Positions 20,415-31,228 of a DNA stretch of 64,000 nt are shown in pieces. Source of the DNA: Starkeya sp. ORNL1 (GTDB lineage: Bacteria > Pseudomonadota > Alphaproteobacteria > Rhizobiales > Xanthobacteraceae). The translations under genes and the position numbers were made by a program. Where the stretch lies: NCBI RefSeq assembly GCF_012971745.1, contig NZ_CP048834.1:4092001-4156000 (forward strand), given 5' to 3'. Under the pieces are notes generated by a model. It was given only the letters and a program-made list of their open reading frames with translations, had not been told where the DNA came from and ran no database searches. Within the stretch, counting starts at the first letter, position 1. Each line of letters opens with the position of its first letter.

Positions 20415-20504
20415 GAGGCGCGGTCTATGACCGCCGAGCCGCCGCCGCAAGTGTTTTCGATGCCGATTTTAGAGTCTTATCAATGAAGTGAGCCAGCGGC
20501 GGGC

Positions 20505-20620
20505 GCGTGCGTGCTTCGAGGCCGGCGCGATGCGCCGGCACCTCAGCATGACGTGGTTTGCTTATCGAGAGCCACGTCATCCTGAGGTGCGAACGCAGTG
20601 AGCCTCGAAGGATGCTCAAG
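20505..20620. repeat. Rearranged family A repeat (half-copies in swapped order)
   Basis: A right-hand half (CTTCGAGGCCGG ... CCGGCACCTCAGCATGACGTGG) is followed by a left-hand half (CCACGTCATCCTGAGGTGCG ... GCCTCGAAGGATGCTCAAG). This order is reversed relative to other copies. The end of the second half overlaps the stop codon of the creatininase gene. Confidence 0.85.
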
Positions 20621-21404
20621 CTTCTGTCGGCTTCCCGAATACCTTCGCCAGGCTGGCCGCGATGTCCGGCACCACCTGCTCGATCACGATCGCGCCCTTC
20701 TCCGCACTCGCCGGCTTGGCGGACGACAGCACGCCGTCTGGCGGGATCGGCGTGGTGTCGAAGGGGTAGACGTCGTAGGGCGGGAAGCTCGCCGCCGGGT
20801 GGTCGGGGATCTTGTCCACCCGCACCAAATCGGGCCGCAGATGGAGCATCACCGAGGTCTCCATCACCGCGGCATGCTCCAGCTCCCAGCTCGGCATGCC
20901 CTCCGGGAACAGTGCCGCCTCGGTCGCCTTGGTGATGAACTCCCAATAGCCGAGCTTGACGATCTTGAGGTCGTGCACACCCTCCGCGCGCTGGTCGCGC
21001 AGCGCGAGGTCGGCGGCTTCGACCAGGAACCACTGGTTCTCCATATGGCCGTCGAACAGCACCACCTTGCGCACGCCATGGCGCGCCAGCTCATTGATGA
21101 TGTTGCGCACGAGCGAGATGAACACGCTGGCGTCGAGGCTGAGCGTGCCGGGGAAGTGGTTGCCGCCGCCGGATTTCGGCTGCGACTTGTAGCCATAGGT
21201 CACCGGCGGCGCGACGAGGCCGCCGAGCTTTGCGGCCACCGCCTCGGCCACCGCGACCGGCAGGATCACGTCGGTGAACAGCGGCAGATGCGGGCCGTGC
21301 TGCTCGACCGAGCCGGTCGGCAGGAAGACGATCGGATCGTCCTTCACTCGTGCGGCGAAGTCGTACCAGGTGAGGTCGGCGATGCGGACGGAAGACTGGG
21401 GCAT
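20616..21404 (-). CDS. Creatininase-family amidohydrolase (creatinine amidohydrolase-like)
   Basis: At 262 aa this matches the usual creatininase length. Metal-ligand positions seen here are E34, H36 and D45 in GSVEQHGPHLPLFTD, and H120 and E122 in DGHMEN. From memory these equal the numbering of the Pseudomonas creatininase binuclear site. An aromatic W154 and the segment PSWELEHAAV near 171-180 also resemble the true creatininase active-site lid. The reaction would be opening of a cyclic amidine or amide such as creatinine to creatine. It is the last gene of a nine-gene operon, 11 bases after an amidohydrolase gene. The stop codon lies at the edge of a palindromic repeat. Confidence 0.88.
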   Translation of the reverse strand: MPQSSVRIADLTWYDFAARVKDDPIVFLPTGSVEQHGPHLPLFTDVILPVAVAEAVAAKLGGLVAPPVTYGYKSQPKSGGGNHFPGTLSLDASVFISLVRNIINELARHGVRKVVLFDGHMENQWFLVEAADLALRDQRAEGVHDLKIVKLGYWEFITKATEAALFPEGMPSWELEHAAVMETSVMLHLRPDLVRVDKIPDHPAASFPPYDVYPFDTTPIPPDGVLSSAKPASAEKGAIVIEQVVPDIAASLAKVFGKPTEA

Positions 21405-21415
21405 GTCAATCACTC

Positions 21416-22933
21416 TCACGCCGGCCACATGTCGGAGTTGCCGATCAGGCGATGCACGCCGAGATCCTGGCTGTTGCAGCGGCGATGGATGGCGTCGAAA
21501 TAGGGTTCGAAGGCACGGTTCCTGGCCTCGACGCCGGAGTGATAGGCGTTGAACTCCGGCATCAACGCGCGCAATTCGGCGAGCAGCGCGGCCTCGTCGA
21601 TCTTTGTCAGCTTGCCGTCCGCCACGACGATCTCGCCATTCACCATCACCTTTTCGATCGACGAGCCGTTCTCGCAATAGACGAGGTGGTTGAGGATGTC
21701 GTTGCGTGGCGTGAAGCTCACCGTGTCGAGATTGAGGATCAGCAAGTCCGCCTTCTTGCCGGCCTCCAGCGAGCCGGTCTCATGGCCGATCATCGCGCTC
21801 TTCGCGCCGGCCAGCGTGCAGGCGTGCAGCACCTCGGCGGCGCTGAGCCATTGCTTGTAGTCCGGCGTCGTCACCTTGTGGATCAGGCCGCAGGCATGCA
21901 TCACGTCGAACATGCGCGGCGTGTCGTTGGAGCAGATGCCGTCCGAGCCGAGCGCGACGTTTACACCCGCCTCCAGAAGCTTGCGCACCGGCGCAACGCC
22001 GGCTCCCAGCTTCTGGTTGGAGATGGTGTTGTGGACGATGGAGACACCGGCCTCGCCCATCAGCGCGATGTCGTCCTCAGTCACCCAGATCGAGTGGGCG
22101 ATGGTGACGCCGGGATGCATCAGGCCGAGATCGGCCATGTAGCGCATCAGCGTCTTGCCATAGAGCGCCGGCCCGGTGACGCCCTGCACCTTGGTCTCGA
22201 CGATGTGGGTGTGGAACGGCACTTGCCATTCGAGTGCCAACTCGTTGGCCGCCTGCATCAGCTCCGGCGTGCAGCGCTGCGGCGCCGAGGGTGCCAGCAT
22301 GAAGCGGATGCGGCCCGAGCGGCCATGGAAGGCGGCATAAGCCTCCTTGGCGAAGGCGATGTATTCGGCCGTGGTCGGCGGGACGAGCTTGGCCACCTCG
22401 GCCTGGAGCTCAGCCGGCACGTGCTCGCGCGAATAGGGGATGGAATCGAGGAAATCGCGATCCATCACATGGCCGGAGACGGTGGCGCGGATGCCGGCAT
22501 CGTCATAGGCGGCGACCGCCGCGCCAAGCTGACCAAGGGTCTGCCGCGGCGCCTCGAATATATCGTCGGTGAGGCAGGTGACGCCGGTCTTCAGCGACTC
22601 GATGGCGACCACCATGGAGCGCAGATAGATCATGCGCTCGCTGAGCGCCTTGGCGCCGAGGATCGGATAGGAATAAAGCATCCAGATCTCGAGCGGCATG
22701 TTGTCGTAGCGCCCCTTGTAGAGCGCTTCGCCGGAATGCAGATGGGCGTTGATCAGGCCCGGCATCACCAGCTTGCCTGTGCCGTCGATGATCTCCGCGC
22801 CCTCCGGAACCGGCAGGCCGGTGCCGATGGCCTTGATGCGCTCGCCCTCGACATGCACGTCGCCGACGAAGGGTACCGACCCCTGCGCGCCGCCCATGGC
22901 GAGCACGGTGGCGCCGCGAATGAAGATCGACAT
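21416..22933 (-). CDS. COG0402-type amidohydrolase (TRZ/ATZ, deaminase-like)
   Basis: This 505-aa metal-dependent hydrolase has the full subtype III set. These are HLH in NAHLHSGEALYKG near residues 66-68, FHTHIVETK (His plus the H-x-x-E deaminase element), TIAHSIWV and GSDG. Such enzymes deaminate or dechlorinate N-heterocycles (cytosine, S-adenosylhomocysteine, 8-oxoguanine, triazines). The C-terminal beta-domain residues KVMVNGEIVVADGKL are typical. It sits between the transporter ATPase and creatininase genes in one operon. With creatininase it suggests attack on a cyclic guanidine or pyrimidine-like compound. A 54-base in-frame extension upstream is not needed for the family N-terminus. 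Confidence 0.9.
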   Translation of the reverse strand: MSIFIRGATVLAMGGAQGSVPFVGDVHVEGERIKAIGTGLPVPEGAEIIDGTGKLVMPGLINAHLHSGEALYKGRYDNMPLEIWMLYSYPILGAKALSERMIYLRSMVVAIESLKTGVTCLTDDIFEAPRQTLGQLGAAVAAYDDAGIRATVSGHVMDRDFLDSIPYSREHVPAELQAEVAKLVPPTTAEYIAFAKEAYAAFHGRSGRIRFMLAPSAPQRCTPELMQAANELALEWQVPFHTHIVETKVQGVTGPALYGKTLMRYMADLGLMHPGVTIAHSIWVTEDDIALMGEAGVSIVHNTISNQKLGAGVAPVRKLLEAGVNVALGSDGICSNDTPRMFDVMHACGLIHKVTTPDYKQWLSAAEVLHACTLAGAKSAMIGHETGSLEAGKKADLLILNLDTVSFTPRNDILNHLVYCENGSSIEKVMVNGEIVVADGKLTKIDEAALLAELRALMPEFNAYHSGVEARNRAFEPYFDAIHRRCNSQDLGVHRLIGNSDMWPA

Positions 22934-22983
22934 CGGATTCACTCCATGATTTCCGGCAAGTTCAGGCGGGAAGGAAAAAGCAA

Positions 22984-24075
22984 TCACCCCGGCAGGAAGA
23001 AGCCTAGGCTGGGCGACCAGCGGGCGACGACCGGCTGGCCGACGCTGAGCGGGGTGTTCTCGATGTCGTGCAGCGGGCGCTGCACGCGCAATTCACCGCC
23101 GCCGTCGGTCTCCAGGAACACGGTGACGGTGGAGCCGACGAATTCGAGCGTGGCGATGCGCCCGGCGACCTCGTTACCGGTGCCGTTGCGGACTTCCGCC
23201 AGCTCGATGCGGTCGGCGGCGACGACCAGCGTGGCCGCCTCGCCGCTGGCGATGGTGCGGCCCTCGGGCAGTGGCGCGCGCACCGTGCCGAACGCGCCGG
23301 CCAGTTCGATCGCTTCGCCGTCCACCCTGGCGGTGCCGGAGAGGATATTGTTGCCGCCGACGAATTCGGCGACGAAGCGGTTGGCGGCGCGGCGATAGAT
23401 CTCCTGCGGCCTGCCGATCTGCTGCACCCGGCCCTCATTCATGATGACGACGCGGTCGGCCATGGCGAAGGCCTCGGAATGGCTGTGCGTCACGCAGATG
23501 AAGGTGATGCCGAGCTCGCGATGGAGGCGCACCAGCTCCGCCTGCATGCGCACCCGCAAATGCGGGTCGAGCGCGCTGAGCGGCTCGTCGAGCAGCAGCA
23601 TTTCGGGTTCGAGCGCCAGCGCCCGAGCCAAGGCGACGCGCTGGCGCTGGCCGCCGGACAGTTGGTCGACGCCGCGCTCGGCGAAGGCGGAAATGCCGAG
23701 CCGCTCCAGCCATTCGTCGGACTTCTTGCGGCGCTCGGGCGCGGGCAGGCCGCGCTGCTTCAGGCCGAACTCGACATTCTTGCGCACCGACAGGAACGGG
23801 AAGAGCGCGTAGCTCTGCCACACCAGCGGCGCGTCGCGCTCCCACGGCGCGTCCTCGTTCAGCCGCCGGCCCCACAGCCGGATCTCGCCGGAGGTCGGCT
23901 GGTCGAGCCCGGCGATCATGCGCAGCGTCGTGGTCTTGCCGCAGCCGGAAGGACCCATCAGCGCGATGAACTCGCCCTTCTCGATGACGAAGGACACCTC
24001 GGCCACCGCGACGTGGTTGTCATAGTGCTTGGCGACACGGTCGATCTCGATCATGGGAGCGGCCATGGGTCTCAT
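22984..24075 (-). CDS. Pot-type ABC transporter ATP-binding protein
   Basis: This 363-aa ATPase has Walker A GPSGCGKTTT, Q-loop VWQSYALFPFLS, signature LSGGQRQRVALARAL and Walker B MLLLDEPLSALDP. A C-terminal TOBE domain contains FVAEFVGGNNILSG. The most 5' of three nearby ATGs overlaps the stop of the PotC-like permease as ATGA, the same coupling seen between the two permeases, so I used it. Starts 9 or 21 bases downstream are possible. Family members import polyamines, opines or other cationic N-compounds. Confidence 0.93.
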   Translation of the reverse strand: MRPMAAPMIEIDRVAKHYDNHVAVAEVSFVIEKGEFIALMGPSGCGKTTTLRMIAGLDQPTSGEIRLWGRRLNEDAPWERDAPLVWQSYALFPFLSVRKNVEFGLKQRGLPAPERRKKSDEWLERLGISAFAERGVDQLSGGQRQRVALARALALEPEMLLLDEPLSALDPHLRVRMQAELVRLHRELGITFICVTHSHSEAFAMADRVVIMNEGRVQQIGRPQEIYRRAANRFVAEFVGGNNILSGTARVDGEAIELAGAFGTVRAPLPEGRTIASGEAATLVVAADRIELAEVRNGTGNEVAGRIATLEFVGSTVTVFLETDGGGELRVQRPLHDIENTPLSVGQPVVARWSPSLGFFLPG

Positions 24076-24875
24076 CCTTCCTTGGCTGTGCGCCCGAGGC
24101 GGCGGCCGATCAGCATTTGCGCCAGCACGACGAGGGTGATGCTGACGCCGAACACCACGGCGCCGATGGCGTTGATGCGCGGGCTCACCTGGCCCTGCAG
24201 CATGGCGAGCACGCGCACCGGGAGCGTTTCGTTGAGGCCGGAGACGAACCAGGCGATCATGAATTCGTCGAACGACACCGCCGCGGTGAGGAACAGGCTC
24301 GCGAGGATCGCCGGCAGGCAAAACGGCACGATCACGCCGAACATCGTCGCCCAGGGCGTGGCGCCGAGATTCCAGGCGGCGCGCTCGATGTCAGGGTCGA
24401 GATCGGCGAGGCGCATCCGCACCAGCGCCATGGCGAACGGCGCGCTCAGGACGACATGGCCGACAATGATTCCGGTTATCGTCCCCGACAGGCCGACGCG
24501 GCCCTCGAAGGTGAGCATGGCGACGCCGAGGATCACCACCGGCACGGTCGGCGGCAGCGCGACCAGCGCGAGATAGGCCGACTTGCCGATGAAGCGGTAG
24601 CGGTAGTCGACATAGGCGGCGGCGAAGCCGAGGAAGGTGGCGATCAGTGCGGTGGCGCCGGCCACGGTCAGGCTGTTCATCAGGCCGCGCTTGATGGTGT
24701 CGTCGGCGAAGATCGCCTCGTACCATTGCAGGCTGAAGCCGCCCCAGGGCAGGCTGGGGAAGCGGTCGGCGTTGAACGAGAACACGATGGTCGAGACGAT
24801 CGGGGCGAAGATGAAGCCGAACACCAGGATGGTATAGGCGACCAGCATGCCTCGGCGGAGCACGGCGCCGCTCAT
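24072..24875 (-). CDS. Pot-type ABC transporter permease (PotC-like)
   Basis: This 267-aa inner-membrane permease begins with the first hydrophobic segment (LVAYTILVFGFIFAPIVSTI). The PotC-type F-x-W-Y motif (FSLQWYEAIFAD) follows, and the EAA loop is DIERAAWNLGATPWATMFGV near residues 160-178. About six membrane helices are expected. Start and stop codons overlap those of both neighbours by 4 bases (ATGA), so the three transporter genes are translationally coupled. Confidence 0.94.
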   Translation of the reverse strand: MSGAVLRRGMLVAYTILVFGFIFAPIVSTIVFSFNADRFPSLPWGGFSLQWYEAIFADDTIKRGLMNSLTVAGATALIATFLGFAAAYVDYRYRFIGKSAYLALVALPPTVPVVILGVAMLTFEGRVGLSGTITGIIVGHVVLSAPFAMALVRMRLADLDPDIERAAWNLGATPWATMFGVIVPFCLPAILASLFLTAAVSFDEFMIAWFVSGLNETLPVRVLAMLQGQVSPRINAIGAVVFGVSITLVVLAQMLIGRRLGRTAKEG

Positions 24876-25774
24876 CGCTTCGCCCCCCGCTTGCCGTAAG
24901 CGAGGCCGAGCATGACCAGCATCACCGTCATCAGCGTCACGATCATCGTCACCGCGACCACCGAGGCACGCGGCCAGTTATTGCCGGACTTCACCTGGTC
25001 GGCGATGAGGATGCTCAGCGTCGGCGGCTTCGAGCCGCCGAGATAGACCGGGGCGACATAGTCGCCGAATGCCAGCACGAAGGCGAAGGTGCCGGCGACG
25101 ATCAGCCCGATCCGGGCCGAGGGGATGATGACGGTGAGGATGGTGCGCAGCCGGCCGCAGCCGAGATTGTGCGCCGCCTCGATGAGGATGCGCGGCACGT
25201 TGGAGAGCGCGAAGGTCTGCAGCAGTACTACCAGCGGCAGCACCAGCACCATGTAGCCGACTATCGTTCCGGTCGCGGTGTTCAGCACCTGGAGCGGGCC
25301 GAGGCCGAGCGGGGTCAGCACGGTATTGATGATGCCCTGCGGGCTGAAGAAGATCTGCGTCGAGTAGATGCGGACCGGGTAGGAGGTGAAGAACGGCACC
25401 ACCAGCATGAAGATCATGAAGCGCCGCGTCGCGGGGCTCACCTTGTAGGCGAGTGTATAGGCCGCGGGGAAGGCGATCAGGCTGGCGAGCACCGCGGTCA
25501 AAGCGGAGAGCCAGAAAGTGTAGACATAGGCGCTGCGGAAGAAGCCGGCATTGAGGATGAAGATCCAGTTGGCCAGCGTGGAATCCGGCGCCAGCCGGAA
25601 GTTCTTCACCGACCAGAAGGTCATCGCCACCAGGAAGCCGAGCGGCACCAGGAAGAAGGCCAGCTGCCAGATGAGCGGCGGCGCGCCCCAGAACACGGCG
25701 AAGCGCGCGCCGGTGGCGCGGCGTGTGCCCGGCGGCGTCGATGGAGCGGACACGGCGTCCGTAGGCGACGTCAC
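24872..25774 (-). CDS. Pot-type ABC transporter permease (PotB-like)
   Basis: This 300-aa permease partners the PotC-like protein. It has a first helix around LIWQLAFFLVPLGFLVAMTF, and an EAA loop in RILIEAAHNLGCGRLRTILT near residues 200-220. It appears to start with GTG preceded by AGGG; no in-frame ATG gives a complete N-terminus. The gene follows the binding-protein gene after a family B palindromic repeat, an arrangement that often lets the binding protein be expressed at a higher level than the membrane parts. Confidence 0.92.
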   Translation of the reverse strand: MTSPTDAVSAPSTPPGTRRATGARFAVFWGAPPLIWQLAFFLVPLGFLVAMTFWSVKNFRLAPDSTLANWIFILNAGFFRSAYVYTFWLSALTAVLASLIAFPAAYTLAYKVSPATRRFMIFMLVVPFFTSYPVRIYSTQIFFSPQGIINTVLTPLGLGPLQVLNTATGTIVGYMVLVLPLVVLLQTFALSNVPRILIEAAHNLGCGRLRTILTVIIPSARIGLIVAGTFAFVLAFGDYVAPVYLGGSKPPTLSILIADQVKSGNNWPRASVVAVTMIVTLMTVMLVMLGLAYGKRGAKR

Positions 25775-25857
25775 TGATATGAACCCTGCTTGAAGCGTCC
25801 GGTGGAAGCGGCGGGCGGCACACGGCCGCCTGCGTTCTTAGTGTGCGGCCCCGTACT

Positions 25858-25970
25858 TCCCTCTCCCCATTGGGGAGAGGTGGCCCGCGAAGCGGGTCGG
25901 TGAGGGGGAGCCCGGCCGGGAAGCCGCGAAGACCCCCTCACCCCAACCCTCTCCCCGTCGGGGAGAGGGA
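25858..25970. repeat. Palindromic repeat, family B copy 1
   Basis: Two hairpins, CCCTCTCCCC-ATT-GGGGAGAGG and CCCTCTCCCC-GTC-GGGGAGAGG, flank a centre with GGTGAGGGGGA and CCCCCTCACCCC as inverted arms. It is located between the binding-protein gene and the PotB-like gene. Copies 2 and 3 are at 39340 and 46077. Confidence 0.93.
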
Positions 25971-25992
25971 GTTATCGGCACCCAGGACGCTG

Positions 25993-27150
25993 TCACATCG
26001 CCTTGAATTCGGACCAGACGTCGTTCCAGGCTTCGATGCTCTGCTTCACCGGGGTCTTGCGGATGAAGATCTTGCCGTCCTTGTACTCGTCCATGACGTT
26101 GCGGGCGTCGAAGGTGTGGCGGAGCGCCTTGGCGTCGGCCGGGAAGTCCTTGTTGAGCAGCTCCCAGCCCTTCTTGTTGGGGATGGAGGCCCAATAGGCC
26201 GGCATGTGCGCCGAGCGCACCTGGCCTTCGGCCGAGGACATGTACTGGATGAAAGCCTTGGCGAGGTCCTTCTTCGGCGAGGAGGAGACGATCGACATGG
26301 ACTCGGTCCACTGGATGCCGCCTTCGTCCGGCACGGTGGCGGAAACCGGCACGCCGTTCTTCTGCAAGAGCAGCACCACCCAGTCGCCGACGCCGGGAAT
26401 GGCGGCAGCGGTGCCGTTGGTCAGCATGGAGAACTGGTCGGCCATCGAATAGAAGCCGCTGGCCTGCGGCTTCAGCGAGAACAGTGTCTCCTTCAGCTTG
26501 CCGAAGGCGGCGTCGGAGATGTCGAAGGGCGGCTTGTTGCCGTTATAGAGGCTGAGGCAGCCCATGGTCGGCAAGTACCAGTCGAAGAAGCCGAGCTTAC
26601 CCTTGATCTTCGGATCCCACAGCACCTTGTAGGACTTCACGTCGGCTTCCGTGAGCACGTCGGTGCGATAGGCGATGCCGAGATAGCCGAAGCGGATCAG
26701 CACCGAATAGAGCTCGCCGCCGGGCCAGTGCGGCTCGAATTTCTGGAACTCCGGCCAATAGTCGGCGAAGGAATAATCCGCCGGGTTCAGCTTGTCGATG
26801 AAGCCGCCTTCCTTCAGCATGCCGATATATTCGGCATCGGCGAGCACCACGTCGAACGAGCCGGGGGGCGACTGGTTCATCAGCGCCAGCATCGGCTCGC
26901 CGCCGACATATTCCTTGGCGACGACCTTGACGCCGTACTTGTCCTCGAACGGCTTCACCACCGCCGGGTCGGCGTGACCGGGCCAGGAGAGCAGGTTCAG
27001 CACCTTGTCCTGCGCATAAGCGGGCTCGGGCAGCGAGCTGCCGAGTGCGGCGGCGCCGGCGAGGCCGGCCGCGCCCTGCAGCAGGCGGCGGCGGTTCATC
27101 GGATGCAGAAGGGCGCGAAAATCGGTGATCGGCTCATCCGGCGGGGTCAT
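25993..27150 (-). CDS. Pot-type ABC transporter substrate-binding protein (Tat signal)
   Basis: This 385-aa periplasmic protein is of the PotD/SBP_bac_8 class. The N-terminus has a twin-arginine motif (MNRRRLLQGAAGLAG, Arg residues 20-22) and a cleavage region near PAYAQ, so it is exported folded. VLNLLSWPGHADPAVVKPFEDKYG is the typical first strand and helix. GGAG precedes the ATG. It is the first transporter gene of the operon, 66 bases after the deaminase gene. The ligand is unknown; the enzyme neighbours argue for a cyclic N-compound. Confidence 0.92.
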   Translation of the reverse strand: MTPPDEPITDFRALLHPMNRRRLLQGAAGLAGAAALGSSLPEPAYAQDKVLNLLSWPGHADPAVVKPFEDKYGVKVVAKEYVGGEPMLALMNQSPPGSFDVVLADAEYIGMLKEGGFIDKLNPADYSFADYWPEFQKFEPHWPGGELYSVLIRFGYLGIAYRTDVLTEADVKSYKVLWDPKIKGKLGFFDWYLPTMGCLSLYNGNKPPFDISDAAFGKLKETLFSLKPQASGFYSMADQFSMLTNGTAAAIPGVGDWVVLLLQKNGVPVSATVPDEGGIQWTESMSIVSSSPKKDLAKAFIQYMSSAEGQVRSAHMPAYWASIPNKKGWELLNKDFPADAKALRHTFDARNVMDEYKDGKIFIRKTPVKQSIEAWNDVWSEFKAM

Positions 27151-27216
27151 GTCGTCATCTCCATCTGGAAGCGGTCTTGTTGGTTGGTGGGGCCGGGTGC
27201 ATGCGCCGGCCGGTGG

Positions 27217-27693
27217 TCACTGGAAGGGTTCGAAACCAGGCGTGGACGCCCACTCGTCGAGAACCGCGCGGGCCTCGCCCTCAAGCAAGCGCTGTGCCGG
27301 AAGCGTGCGATCGTGTAGATCGCTGCGTACCATCGTCGTCAGCGGCTCCAGCTTGAAGCCGATCTCGGCGCAATCCTTCAGCGTGTTGGCGTAGTACATG
27401 CGGCCGATCTTCGCCCAGAACATCGAGGCGACGCACATCTCGCACGGCTCACATGTCGTATAGAGGTCGCAACCACTGAGATCCCACGTCTTCAGATTGC
27501 GGCCGGCGTCGCGGATTGCTTCGACCTCGCCGTGGGACGTTGCGTCATGATTATTGACGACGTTGTTGACGCCCTCGCCGACGATGACGCCATCCTTGAC
27601 GATGACGCAGCCGAACGGCGCCGAGCCGTCCGCCCTCATCTTGTCGCGGCTGATCTCGATGGCACGGCGCATGAAGGTCTCGGGAGTACTCAT
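27217..27693 (-). CDS. CDA-fold nucleoside/guanine deaminase-like protein
   Basis: This 158-aa zinc deaminase of the cytidine deaminase-like superfamily has SHGEVEAIRDAG, giving the zinc His and the proton-shuttle Glu near residues 54-56. TCEPCEMCVAS supplies the two zinc cysteines near residues 83-86. Spacing and the C-terminal layout resemble GuaD guanine deaminases. Its start overlaps the amidase stop by 4 bases (ATGA). Hydrolytic deamination of an amino-substituted ring, or of a riboflavin- or pterin-type intermediate, is the expected chemistry. Confidence 0.9.
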   Translation of the reverse strand: MSTPETFMRRAIEISRDKMRADGSAPFGCVIVKDGVIVGEGVNNVVNNHDATSHGEVEAIRDAGRNLKTWDLSGCDLYTTCEPCEMCVASMFWAKIGRMYYANTLKDCAEIGFKLEPLTTMVRSDLHDRTLPAQRLLEGEARAVLDEWASTPGFEPFQ

Positions 27694-29135
27694 GAGAGGG
27701 CCTCGTTGAGAGAGCGGACGGGATCGGAAGAGCGGAAGGCCGGCGGCACCAGGCTGACCGGGGGGCGCGCCCGCTCGATAGCGGCGGCGAGGCGCACCAC
27801 ATCCGCCTCTGCAAGCGAGCGGCCAACAATCTGCAGGCCGACCGGCATGCCGTCGGCGGCAAGGCCGGCGCAGACCGACGCGGCCGGCTGGCCGGTGAGG
27901 TTGAACGGGTAGGTGTAGAACACCCAGCTCACCAGATTGCGGTCTGAGAGGTGAGCGGGCATGTCGACGCCGGCATCGAGCGAGGTGACGGGCAGCACCG
28001 GCGAGACCAGCGCGTCGTAGCGCTCGAAGAAGCGCCGCATCTCCTCGCGTAGCGCGTAGCGGCGGAACACCGTCTCGTAATAGGCGCGCATCTCCTGTGC
28101 CAAGGCGGCGTCGAGCACGGTGGCGACTGAGGGATCGAGCAATTCGCGCCGCTGTTCCACGACCTCGCGCAGCCGGGTGCCGACGCCGGCATAGAATTCG
28201 GCGATCCACATGTCCGCGGGGTCGGCGGCGAACACGGCATCGACCTCTTCGATGGCGGCGCCGCGATCTTCCAGAGCGCGCACCACGCCTTCGGCGACGC
28301 GCAGCACGTCGGGGTCCGGGCGGGCATAGCCGAGCGTCGGGCTCCAGGCGATGCGCATGCCGTCGATGGGTTCCGCAGTGGCGGCGAGCACGTCCGGCAC
28401 CTTGCCGGCGACGCTGAACGGGTCGCGCGGGTCGTAGCCGGCGATGGCGCTGAACAGCAGCGCCGCATCCGCGATGTTGCGGGCGATCGGCCCGACATGG
28501 GCGAGCGTCGGCGTCGCCGAGGTCGGCCAGACCGGCACGCGGCCGAACTGGCCCTTGATGCCGGCGAGGCCGGTGAAGGCGCAGGGAATACGGATCGAGC
28601 CGCCGCCATCGGTGCCCAGCGCAAAAGGCGTGACACCGGCAGCGACCGAGGCGGCCGCGCCGGCGCTGGAGCCGCCGGGGGTCTTGGCGGGATTCCAGGG
28701 GTTGCGGGTTATGCCGGTGAGCGGGCTGTCGCCGACCGGCTTGCAGCCGAATTCGCTGGTGGTGGTCTTGCCGATCAGGATGGCGCCAGCTGCCTTTGCC
28801 CGCTCCACCGCGGGCGCGTCCACCGTCGCGATGTTGTCCGCCATGGCGCGGGAGCCGGAGGCATAAGGCTTGCCGGCGACCGCCATCAGGTCCTTGGCGG
28901 AGAACGGCAGACCGTGCAGGGGCCCGAGCGGGAGTCCATGCATGAGGGCGTCTTCCGCTTGCCGGGCGGCGGCCATGGCTTCGTCAGGCATGAGGAAACA
29001 GAAGGCGTTGAGCGTCGATTGCGTCGCCTCGGCGGCGTCCAGCGCGCGCCGGGTGAGTTCGACCGGCGAAACCTGCCGGGACGCAACCAGCGCCCTGAGC
29101 TCGCTCGCCGTCCTGTGGTCGAACCCGGCCGACAT
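27690..29135 (-). CDS. Amidase signature family hydrolase
   Basis: This 481-aa cytoplasmic amidase has the Ser-cisSer-Lys triad in place: K81 in GLPFSAKD, S156/S157 in TPGGSSAGAAASVAAG, and nucleophile S180 in GTDGGGSIRIP. Length and motifs are standard for AS-family enzymes that hydrolyse linear amides, ureido acids (allophanate, ureidopropionate-like) or acylhydrazides. It is between the cyclase-family gene (10 bases) and the deaminase gene (4-base overlap), consistent with hydrolysis of an amide exposed after ring opening. Confidence 0.93.
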   Translation of the reverse strand: MSAGFDHRTASELRALVASRQVSPVELTRRALDAAEATQSTLNAFCFLMPDEAMAAARQAEDALMHGLPLGPLHGLPFSAKDLMAVAGKPYASGSRAMADNIATVDAPAVERAKAAGAILIGKTTTSEFGCKPVGDSPLTGITRNPWNPAKTPGGSSAGAAASVAAGVTPFALGTDGGGSIRIPCAFTGLAGIKGQFGRVPVWPTSATPTLAHVGPIARNIADAALLFSAIAGYDPRDPFSVAGKVPDVLAATAEPIDGMRIAWSPTLGYARPDPDVLRVAEGVVRALEDRGAAIEEVDAVFAADPADMWIAEFYAGVGTRLREVVEQRRELLDPSVATVLDAALAQEMRAYYETVFRRYALREEMRRFFERYDALVSPVLPVTSLDAGVDMPAHLSDRNLVSWVFYTYPFNLTGQPAASVCAGLAADGMPVGLQIVGRSLAEADVVRLAAAIERARPPVSLVPPAFRSSDPVRSLNEALS

Positions 29136-29145
29136 CTGGGTTCCG

Positions 29146-29847
29146 TCAGTTCGGCAGCAGCGCGAAGGCGCGCACCGGCGAGCCCGAGCCGCCTTTGAAC
29201 TTCAGCGGCACGCCGAAGAACTGGAACTCGCCCTTGCCGATCAGCTCCTCCAGATTCATCAGCCATTCCCAATGGCTGATACCGAGATCGCGGCACAGCC
29301 GATGCTGGGCGAAGATGTTGTCGGTCGGCTTGTCGGTGGAGGGACCCTCGACGCCATGCATGCGCGAGCCGCGCTCATGCAGCCACCGGGTGGCGCCGAC
29401 GGTGAGCAGCGGGTTCTTCCACACCGAATCGAGGCTCGGATAGTTGCGGGCGTGGAAACCGGTGCACAGCAGCACGATGTGGCCATCGACCTTGACGCCG
29501 GACTTCGCCTCGGCCGCCTCCATGTCGGCGGCCTCGATATCGCCGAGATCGGGGATGTGGCGCAGGTCGAAGCACACCGCCTTGCCCATGAACAGGTCGA
29601 GCGGCATCTCGTCGATCGGTGCGCCGTCCGGCTTCACATGGCGGAAAGCGTCCACATGGGTGCCGACATGGTCGAGCATGGCGATGAAATTGGTCTGGAA
29701 GGTCATGGCGTCGCCGGGTACGCCGAGATCGAACGCCTTCGACTTCTCGTGGCTCAGATGCGTTGTGATGACCGGGCGCTGGAAGAGCTTGTGCGCCGGC
29801 ATGTTGTCTTCAATGGCGACGCTGAGATCGACGATGCGCTGGCTCAT
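29146..29847 (-). CDS. Cyclase-family (kynurenine formamidase / isatin hydrolase-like) metal hydrolase
   Basis: This 233-aa protein of the Cyclase family (PF04199) has the metal motif DHVGTHVDAFRH near residues 59-70 (H-x-G-T-H-x-D-x3-H). It also has SHWEWLMNLEEL near the C-terminus. Members include kynurenine formamidase and isatin hydrolase, which open cyclic or aryl amides. It is the first gene of the operon and divergent from a LysR regulator, so it may catalyse the first or second ring-opening step. The ATG was chosen by family N-terminus; the longer reading frame reaches into the promoter region. Confidence 0.9.
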   Translation of the reverse strand: MSQRIVDLSVAIEDNMPAHKLFQRPVITTHLSHEKSKAFDLGVPGDAMTFQTNFIAMLDHVGTHVDAFRHVKPDGAPIDEMPLDLFMGKAVCFDLRHIPDLGDIEAADMEAAEAKSGVKVDGHIVLLCTGFHARNYPSLDSVWKNPLLTVGATRWLHERGSRMHGVEGPSTDKPTDNIFAQHRLCRDLGISHWEWLMNLEELIGKGEFQFFGVPLKFKGGSGSPVRAFALLPN

Positions 29848-30274
29848 GCGATGTACCTGTCCTGTGAACGGCGCCGCGCCCGAATGACTGGCACGACGCA
29901 AAGCAATGGCGGTCGCGGCCACGAGCGCGGCCGCGCGAAAACTGCCTTTCGGTTTTCCTATTCCCTCAGTATGCCGCGCCTGGATGCGCCGCACTTGCGG
30001 CGGGTGCGCTTGGCTTCATCCATCCGGCGGACCCGACGATAGGCATTTCCGGGCCAGGCAAACAAAGACGGAATTCCAATCCATCCCATAGGAATTTACT
30101 ATTGATCAGAACTATAGGCAGCTTTGATCGACCCTATAGGCTGAATTATCGTGTTATATCAATGCATTGATAAAACAAATGCTTATAGAATAAGCAGATT
30201 GCACAATTTGATAGCAGTTGACAAAAGCAGGCATGCCGCCACCATGACCGAAGATCAGGACATGACGGCCGCTG
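29848..30274. promoter_or_regulatory. Divergent promoter region with tandem CTATAGGC repeats and a 16-bp palindrome
   Basis: This 427-base gap holds no convincing gene. The part at 30080-30230 is unusually AT-rich for the window. TTGATCAGAACTATAGGC (30102-30119) and TTGATCGACCCTATAGGC (30124-30141) are direct repeats with 22-base periodicity. A weaker third match (CCATCCCATAGG) lies at 30081-30092. TATCAATGCATTGATA (30157-30172) is a perfect palindrome. These are likely binding sites for the LysR protein encoded next to them, controlling both divergent transcripts. Confidence 0.7.
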
Positions 30275-31228
30275 ATGGATCTCCGACAACTTCGCTATTT
30301 CGTGCAGATCGCCGATTGCGGGAACTTCTCGCGCGCCGCGGAGATGCTGCGCGTCGCGCAGCCTTCGCTCAGCCAGCAGATCAGGACGCTGGAAGACGAA
30401 CTGGGCGTCGATCTGTTCGTGCGCCACGCCCGCGGCGTGACGCTCACCGATCTCGGCATGCAGTTCTGCGATCATTCGCGCCGCATCATCCAGGAGGCCG
30501 ACCGCGCCAAGGAAGCGGTGCGCTCGCGATCGGCGAGCCCGGCGGGGCGGGTCTCGGTGGGCTTGCCGACCTCGGCCTGCCGCGGGCTGTCGCTGCACCT
30601 GTTCAAGGCGATCGCCGAACGGCTGCCGAACATCCAGCTGCATATCGTCGAGGCGATGACCGGCTACCTCGACGAGCTGGTGCAGGTCGGCCGGCTCGAC
30701 GTCGCGCTGCTCTATGACCACAAGGCGTTCGAGCACGTGGCCTGGACCGAGATGATGGTCGAGGACCTGATGCTGTTCGTCCCCACTGGGAGCCCGCTGG
30801 CGGAGCTCACCTCCATCCCGTTCGCCGAGCTGTTCGATCTGCCCATGGTGCTGCCGGCGCGGCCGAACGTGGCGCGCATCGTGCTGGAGCAGCTCGCCGC
30901 CCGGCACAATGTCGAGGCCAGGGCGATGGATTGCGACAGCCTGCCGGCCATCGCCCAATTGGTGCGCTCGTCGCAATACAACACAGTGATGCCGCACTTC
31001 GCCTTTGCGACCGAGATCGAGCGCGGCGAGATGATCGCCATTCCCATAATCGACCCGACGCCGTCCTGGCGGCTTTCCGTCGTGGTCTCCCAGCGCACCA
31101 TGAACATGCGCGGCAGCGACGGCGTCGCCCGGGTGATGGCCGAAGTGATCGCCGACCTCGTCGACCAGGGCATCTGGCGCGCGCGGCTGAAGTCGGAGAA
31201 GTCCTACGCGGCAAGGAACCCGCGGTGA
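30275..31228 (+). CDS. LysR-family transcriptional regulator
   Basis: This 317-aa protein begins with the consensus LysR N-terminus (MDLRQLRYFVQIADCGNFSR). The HTH is AAEMLRVAQPSLSQQIRTLEDELGV. An effector domain follows, with GRVSVGLPTSACRGLSLHLF near 90-110, resembling Nac/Cbl/CatR-like members. It is divergent from the creatininase/amidase/cyclase operon and is the likely activator. The ribosome site is weak. An ATG 31 bases upstream is in another frame. Confidence 0.92.
   Translation: MDLRQLRYFVQIADCGNFSRAAEMLRVAQPSLSQQIRTLEDELGVDLFVRHARGVTLTDLGMQFCDHSRRIIQEADRAKEAVRSRSASPAGRVSVGLPTSACRGLSLHLFKAIAERLPNIQLHIVEAMTGYLDELVQVGRLDVALLYDHKAFEHVAWTEMMVEDLMLFVPTGSPLAELTSIPFAELFDLPMVLPARPNVARIVLEQLAARHNVEARAMDCDSLPAIAQLVRSSQYNTVMPHFAFATEIERGEMIAIPIIDPTPSWRLSVVVSQRTMNMRGSDGVARVMAEVIADLVDQGIWRARLKSEKSYAARNPR

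Follow-up and report, generated by a model that had tools for sequence, protein, structure and literature searches.

We analyzed a 64,000-nucleotide stretch of the soil bacterium Starkeya sp. ORNL1 (contig NZ_CP048834.1, positions 4,092,001 to 4,156,000; here called the window), which carries a nine-gene operon and a divergent gene for a LysR regulator (Table 1). The host genome is a single contig of 6.29 Mb, and Ancylobacter species are the closest named relatives carrying the same operon. All nine open reading frames lie on the minus strand, from 29847 down to 20616, in the order cyc-amd-dea-sbp-pm1-pm2-atp-ahs-crn. An earlier note on this DNA had described them as a creatininase, two deaminase-type enzymes, an amidase and a cyclase-family hydrolase joined to a Pot-type importer. 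Every frame is present and falls into the claimed family by Pfam and NCBIfam models; the note had left out the LysR gene and an operator-like element upstream of cyc. Its claim of tight spacing holds for three exact ATGA overlaps (amd/dea at 27690-27693, pm1/pm2 at 24872-24875 and pm2/atp at 24072-24075), and an alternative GTG start of ahs (22987) would overlap the atp stop at 22984-22987, but the sbp-pm1 junction is not tight, with 218 bp between the genes. This intergenic stretch has a predicted fold energy of -123.8 kcal/mol (z -5.15; 0 of 200 shuffles equally good), and the hairpin may tune expression of the binding protein or be a repeat element. An inverted repeat, perhaps a dispersed one, lies directly downstream of crn at 20420-20620 (CACCTCAGGATGACGTGG ... 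CCACGTCATGCTGAGGTG). The promoter scan (one promoter-like site against 1.6 expected) and the terminator scan (three against 5.0 expected) were both uninformative.

Table 1. Features of the operon and its upstream gap, in window positions; modules A and B are defined in the text.
Feature	Position	Strand	Evidence
cyc, cyclase-family (PF04199) metal-dependent hydrolase, 233 aa, module A	29146..29847	-	PF04199, 109.7 bits
amd, amidase-signature hydrolase, 481 aa, module A	27690..29135	-	PF01425, 344.6 bits
dea, cytidine-deaminase-fold deaminase, HGE subfamily, 158 aa, module B	27217..27693	-	PF00383, 91.7 bits
sbp, solute-binding protein of Pot-type importer	25993..27150	-	PF13416, 95.6 bits
sbp-pm1 intergenic stretch, strong predicted hairpin	25775..25992	-	fold energy
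pm1, PotB-like permease	24872..25774	-	PF00528; NF007044, 110 bits, below cut-off 348
pm2, PotC-like permease	24072..24875	-	PF00528; NF007047, 167.2 bits, below cut-off 326
atp, PotA-like ATPase with TOBE_2 domain	22984..24075	-	PF00005 and PF08402
ahs, COG0402-type amidohydrolase, 505 aa, module B	21416..22933	-	PF01979, 166.2 bits
crn, creatininase, 262 aa, module B	20616..21404	-	TIGR04448, 366.3 bits, cut-off 235; 1q3k, E 1e-85
LysR regulator, divergent	30275..31228	+	PF00126/PF03466
Operator/promoter-like element in LysR-cyc gap	30063..30092	-	pattern match

The earlier note had found active-site residues intact in all five enzymes, and motifs which we take to carry the usual catalytic meanings were located in cyc, amd, dea and ahs, as were the metal residues of crn. 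The product of crn exceeds the creatininase cut-off of TIGR04448 by 131 bits. Counted from the ATG at 21404, E34, H36, D45, H120 and E122, presumably the metal residues of creatininase, lie at exactly the numbers given by the note. Two tryptophans that we take to line the substrate pocket, W154 and W174, are also kept. In the alignment, W174 recurs in the operon-borne crn of the window, of A. pratisalsi and of loci L022, L028, L029 and L030, as well as in 1q3k and in another crn that has a creatinase-like gene (1chm, E 6e-178) nearby. All six aligned paralogues that adjoin ureohydrolase (arginase family) or SDR genes differ here, with Thr in L045 and L046 of the same genome and in G240, and Phe in G922, G608 and G637; two remote family members (own44 and L050) have Glu. 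The creatininase cut-off alone is weak, since these ureohydrolase- and SDR-linked paralogues are about as similar. The two paralogues of the host genome (49-51% identical to crn, Thr at the W174 place) adjoin arginase-family genes at about 182500-185700 (L046) and at 6053000-6059000 (L045) of G000:C1, one with a COG0402 gene and one with SDR-like genes. In L176-L179, a creatininase-family gene (three were aligned and have Phe at the position of W174) lies in a conserved unit with isochorismatase-like, SDR and desaturase-like genes, joined in L176 and L177 by a lactonase-like gene. Among neighbour labels, VOC, GAF, TetR, BMP, desaturase-like and lactonase-like were read by eye from printed sequences, as were TRAP in L235-L237 and the purine genes beside L122.

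Regarding the deaminases, dea carries the motifs SHGE (53-56) and CEPCEMC (81-87), and its best solved matches are the guanine deaminases 1wkq and 1tiy (E 2.6e-31 and 2.8e-31). It belongs to a subfamily in which HGE replaces HAE and the GFDD (or DFDD) segment of the aligned GuaD-like proteins is missing; there dea reads GFKL. We take HAE to be the zinc motif and GFDD the substrate segment of guanine deaminase; with both missing, a GuaD-type guanine deaminase was rejected, as was the tRNA adenosine deaminase TadA (NF008113, 79 bits against a cut-off of 150). A dea paralogue (50-54%) with a second Pot-type importer (genes 50-59%) occurs in the same genome (G000:C1 1387111-1391638, L118 5111-9638), followed by GntR-like and flavin-reductase-like genes. 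The ahs protein contains NAHLHS (62-67), HTHIVET (241-247), IAHS (278-281) and GSDG (329-332); its best solved match is atrazine chlorohydrolase 4v1x (E 9e-47). Named COG0402 enzymes (N-ethylammeline chlorohydrolase, 5'-deoxyadenosine deaminase, 8-oxoguanine deaminase and others) were rejected on their NCBIfam cut-offs, the highest score being 278.9 bits against a cut-off of 609 among the best 25 of 44 families. Triazine or cyanuric-acid catabolism was also set aside, as the operon, to which this search was confined rather than genome-wide, holds no cyanuric-acid hydrolase.

The metal motif of cyc, HVGTHVDAFRH, spans residues 60-70. A subfamily signature, EGPSTDKP, is common to the aligned relatives of cyc, reads EGPSTDRA in L117b and is absent from the remote L117a. 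A search at E <= 1e-40 gave 854 homologues of cyc, and some relatives are named kynurenine formamidase by public pipelines; kynurenine formamidase KynB was rejected for cyc (TIGR03035, 64 bits against 223.05). Isatin hydrolases have the motifs HxG[T/A]HxDxPxH and GLQC/GLAS (PMC6117287). Isatin hydrolase was rejected as well: cyc keeps the metal ligands, but Phe replaces the Pro and GISHWEWL stands in place of GLQC/GLAS. The amd protein shows the Lys-Ser-Ser motifs SAKDL (79-83), GGSSAG (154-159) and GGSIRIP (178-184), and scores 490.1 bits against NF004815, below the cut-off of 506. Finally, sbp has a twin-arginine-like signal from residue 20. A polyamine-binding protein of the PotD or PotF type was rejected (60 and 39.4 bits against cut-offs of 582 and 636). 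In the mapped operons with this Pot importer family, dea, ahs or a CodA-like gene is always present, if the broken ahs of Bradyrhizobium sp. 186 is counted. In that strain (plasmid p186_1, L056 12001-13484) the ahs frame is broken about midway, and the Pot and Liv importers, cyc and amd remain. In L020 (12472-21514), and on the same side in L027, a second unit on the opposite strand adjoins the operon, with a Pot-type importer, an ahs relative (33-36%) and GAF-like, CodA-like, amidase and TetR-like genes.

The distribution of these genes separates them into two modules. A search with crn (E <= 1e-110) over 30 genomes of the genus returned 15, all of which were mapped (the window, G077 at L161 and 13 others). 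The genes dea and crn and the four importer genes occur in all 15, ahs in 13, and cyc with amd in eight. Two others carry instead genes matching N-carbamoylsarcosine amidohydrolase (CSH) and the hydantoinase subunits HyuA and HyuB; five have neither of these downstream modules and none has both, and G934 retains an amidase remnant. The nine-gene order is identical in eight of the 30 Ancylobacter genomes, the window's included, which is more than chance would give; five of these eight full operons have a Liv-type importer inserted between LysR and cyc, and the window, G948 and G941 do not. Separate ahs and CSH searches of the same 30 genomes agree with this, giving ahs at least 87% identical in 13 and CSH at least 99% identical in two, with no genome in both sets. 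Weaker ahs relatives (38-41%) occur in 11 genomes, including the CSH-bearing G946, and weaker CSH-family relatives (33-36%) in G933, G959 and the ahs-bearing G960. In other genera the set is assembled differently: cyc-amd-Pot-ahs-crn without dea in Arboricoccus, Pot-ahs-crn in Aureimonas, cyc-amd-Pot-ahs in Mesorhizobium, crn (49%), dea, Pot, ahs and a CodA-like gene in Chthonobacter, and Pot, dea, CodA-like and ahs in Tabrizicola. The CodA-like protein of Chthonobacter passes the cytosine deaminase cut-off (793.7 against 438 bits). Six of 21 loci (L032, L033, L035, L036, L039 and L040), too short or too distant, were excluded from this comparison.

The cyc-amd pair was followed further. At the order level, a cyc search (E <= 1e-90) over 397 genomes returned 14, of which 13 regions were compared and G989 was left out. 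In each of the 13 regions, cyc is followed by an amidase gene with 37-78% identity to amd; in four the order is LysR, Liv importer, cyc and amd, in seven a TRAP-type importer precedes cyc-amd, and one is the Mesorhizobium operon. G050 has LysR-cyc-amd with no module B in the 20 kb viewed, and its cyc is 91% identical to a Labrys monachus protein. At the class level (385 genomes, 11 places other than our own), amd adjoins cyc in seven, five of them with a gene for a CobW-type GTPase in between; the remaining places comprise one contig edge, one weak amidase (27%) and two with none. In all, this possible metallochaperone stands beside cyc in L109, L110, L111, L113, L114, L115, L059 and L060, and between cyc and amd in seven of these eight loci. 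Other neighbours of cyc are a CSH-like gene (1nba, E 7.2e-41), a D-hydantoinase/dihydropyrimidinase (520.2 against a cut-off of 393.25 bits) and an allantoinase-PuuE relative (393.2 bits, just under the cut-off of 424.6). The nine genes are thus two fused modules, A (LysR, cyc and amd) and B (dea, Pot, ahs and crn), and since these also occur apart, they are not one indivisible pathway.

The two modules are probably linked by their regulation. An element CCTAT-N6-GATYGGAA-N4-RTCTTTG lies in the LysR-operon gap; the window search used the looser start CYWAT, and 100 shuffles gave no match. Across 2.48 Mb of fetched sequence, counting duplicates, the pattern was matched only in such gaps, with ten distinct sequences, although it was drawn from the same gaps and fits there by construction. 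Among 24 gaps examined (two genomes twice), 13 match exactly, nine are near matches by eye and two (L113 and L114) do not match. The element is common to genomes that show cyc-amd but not module B in the sequence viewed (G050, G170 and G142), to the full operons and to the five Ancylobacter genomes with module B only. Relatives of the LysR protein (65-75%) likewise accompany both cyc-amd alone and module B alone. The shared regulator and operator-like element suggest that the two modules respond to one inducer, which would fit a single pathway served by both. This sharing, with the fusion in eight of 15 genomes, argues against a reading in which creatine or creatinine is scavenged for ammonia and ends at N-methylhydantoin, cyc-amd acting on an unrelated compound. 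Five Ancylobacter genomes do keep only dea-Pot-ahs-crn, and C. glutamicum takes ammonia from creatinine with N-methylhydantoin as a dead end (PMC8864220); even so, we consider this reading very unlikely.

The two CSH-bearing operons bear on the function of cyc and amd. On plasmid pLGM of A. pratisalsi and in a second Ancylobacter genome, a different LysR gene is followed by an isochorismatase-family gene (CSH), hyuA, hyuB, dea, sbp, pm1, pm2, atp and crn. The block from dea to crn is 78-91% identical to that of the window, and neither operon contains cyc, amd or ahs. The best match of the pLGM CSH is N-carbamoylsarcosine amidohydrolase 1nba (E 8.7e-73) and that of HyuA is N-methylhydantoinase 7hk5 (E 6.3e-193); the nearest NCBIfam models of HyuA and HyuB are caprolactamase, below cut-off. 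The three proteins of the second genome are 98-99% identical to those of pLGM. Since cyc-amd occupies the same place in the sister operons, we infer that it would perform the HyuAB and CSH steps. Likewise, dea is the only deaminase in the CSH operons and must be the creatinine deaminase there if the pathway runs through N-methylhydantoin; an unlinked deaminase is possible. Among 17 genomes searched, a close CSH together with a close HyuA was found only in Mesorhizobium. Next after its CSH-HyuA-HyuB set (66-81%) comes a gene for an FAD-dependent oxidase (PF01266, 247 bits), with glycine/sarcosine oxidase models scoring below their cut-offs; such a gene would fit sarcosine as the product. The note had found neither creatinase nor hydantoinase, and the wider search largely bears this out: the three Creatinase_N places of the window's genome hold no creatinase-like protein (one is nearest ectoine hydrolase DoeA, one is 21% identical to the creatinase-like protein and one does not match it), no CSH homologue of the isochorismatase fold appears at E <= 1e-20, and the best HyuA match is 36% identical (E 4.6e-107); dihydropyrimidinase-type hydantoinases were not searched genome-wide.

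In vertebrates, creatinine is a form of waste nitrogen, and creatinine sensors make use of enzymes that act on it. We propose the substrates and reaction order from gene neighbourhoods. The Pot-type importer would take up creatine or creatinine, which crn would interconvert. Then dea, the proposed creatinine deaminase, and/or ahs, a proposed second deaminase, would convert creatinine to N-methylhydantoin and ammonia. As the proposed ring opener, cyc would act without ATP, most simply to give N-carbamoylsarcosine, and amd would hydrolyze this to sarcosine, CO2 and ammonia; as a variant, cyc might attack C2, the carbamate lose CO2 and amd hydrolyze sarcosinamide. Module A would thereby replace the ATP-dependent HyuA/HyuB hydantoinase and CSH. 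A creatine or creatinine role is probable for module B taken alone. For the operon as a whole, LysR-controlled uptake and complete hydrolysis of creatine or creatinine to sarcosine, with cyc and amd in place of HyuAB and CSH, the balance is about even. In its most specific form, the proposal makes cyc an ATP-free N-methylhydantoin amidohydrolase of the PF04199 family, has amd finish the reaction and assigns creatinine deamination to dea, with its cytidine-deaminase fold; the three would then form a second route to sarcosine, hydrolytic throughout. This form is less likely than not. The weakest link of the scheme is the pair dea and ahs, which may be alternative or complementary deaminases.

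Several observations weigh against the sarcosine route. The exchange seen in the two Ancylobacter genomes seems to have happened once, their CSH proteins being 99% identical, and Mesorhizobium G593 holds cyc-amd-Pot-ahs and, elsewhere, CSH-HyuA-HyuB-oxidase. G484 has cyc, the CobW GTPase, amd and a CSH-like gene in one run, so amd may not perform the CSH step. Module A is in most cases found away from module B and beside an importer of its own, and in five Ancylobacter genomes module B is present while both downstream modules are missing. If both deaminated creatinine, dea and ahs would be redundant; ahs is absent in two Ancylobacter operons, and dea or crn in other genera. Family identity alone cannot fix the substrate of crn, as the SDR-linked G922 (55%) is as close as 1q3k (52%). 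The S. meliloti ahs relative (53%), found with a nucleoside hydrolase and a BMP importer, would suit a nucleobase.

This last observation belongs to a reading in which the substrate is a nucleobase- or pteridine-like ring, ahs and dea removing two exocyclic amino groups, crn and cyc opening rings and amd finishing. Relatives of ahs (53-57%) adjoin BMP-type importers, in Sinorhizobium/Ensifer also a nucleoside hydrolase, two deaminase types stand together, and dea is nearest among solved structures to guanine deaminase. Against this, the operon has no oxidase or reductase, dea lacks the HAE and GFDD of the aligned guanine deaminases, crn retains the creatininase tryptophan, and HyuAB and CSH stand in the swapped operons; we regard this reading as quite improbable. 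On S. meliloti pSymA (L057 3919-11518) the ahs relative lies in a run with the BMP-type importer, a VOC protein and the nucleoside hydrolase, and uracil-DNA-glycosylase and choline-dehydrogenase genes lie upstream. The note had proposed uptake and stepwise hydrolysis of a creatinine-, hydantoin- or pyrimidine-like ring: the first two are supported, with creatinine the best candidate, and for a pyrimidine only the ahs relatives near nucleoside-type importers speak.

A further reading takes module A for a cyclic-imide system (imidase cyc and half-amidase amd, for succinimide-, glutarimide- or maleimide-like compounds) that is only co-regulated with module B for nitrogen scavenging. It would account for the cyc-amd pairs that stand alone with their own Liv or TRAP importer in 11 of 13 order-level regions and for the PuuE-like genes, with the fold of known imidases, that adjoin cyc in L109 and L116; the fungal imidase HxnM and amidase HxnN follow the same two-step logic (PMC9304392). 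The swap with HyuAB and CSH upstream of the same dea-Pot-crn block speaks against it, as do the 4-bp amd/dea overlap in the window, the CSH-like gene after amd in L110 and the D-hydantoinase next to cyc in L117. Since hydantoins belong to the cyclic ureides, the two readings shade together; we hold the imide system to be rather unlikely.

If the sarcosine route is right, three families gain a function, namely a cyclase-family hydantoin hydrolase, an amidase and a creatinine deaminase of the cytidine-deaminase fold, and many proteins automatically named kynurenine formamidase, guanine deaminase or TadA would need renaming. A gene for an ATP-independent N-methylhydantoinase would also be at hand. 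Such an activity is on record for Clostridium FS41, in whose genome only the gene of the HyuB subunit was found (PMC4417704); it might be explained by the cyc family, which we observed in Alpha- and Betaproteobacteria. In open-licence PMC full text, among the papers listed, we found none on this operon by title or abstract (gene set, creatinine deaminase with the best 30 of 73 papers, imidases), and none on creatinine with Ancylobacter or on a creatininase with Trp174.

Compared with known systems, the operon combines familiar and differing parts. In the creatininase-creatinase pathway, creatinine is converted to creatine and then to sarcosine and urea; the creatininase is shared, whereas no creatinase-like gene was found in the window's genome. 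Isatin hydrolase and bacterial kynurenine formamidase, also PF04199 proteins, share the fold family and metal ligands of cyc, which differs in its Phe for Pro, its lack of GLQC/GLAS and its score of 64 against 223 bits for KynB. Fungal HxnM and HxnN resemble cyc and amd in opening a ring and then hydrolyzing an amide; HxnM, however, is related to PuuE and peptidoglycan-deacetylase-like proteins (PMC9304392), and cyc belongs to PF04199. The closest likeness in route is to C. glutamicum ATCC 14067, in which creatinine passes through N-methylhydantoin and N-carbamoylsarcosine to sarcosine by way of CodA, CrnA, HyuB and CshA, and CodA is linked to creatinine degradation (PMC8864220). A creatininase, a deaminase, an importer and the predicted intermediates are common to both, and the A. 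pratisalsi sister operon also has HyuAB and CSH. The window operon instead lacks a CodA-type deaminase, HyuAB and an isochorismatase-fold CSH, and has a Pot-type ABC importer rather than CrnT/CreT, together with cyclase-family and amidase-signature enzymes. It is likely a novel form of the established route that breaks creatinine down through N-methylhydantoin.

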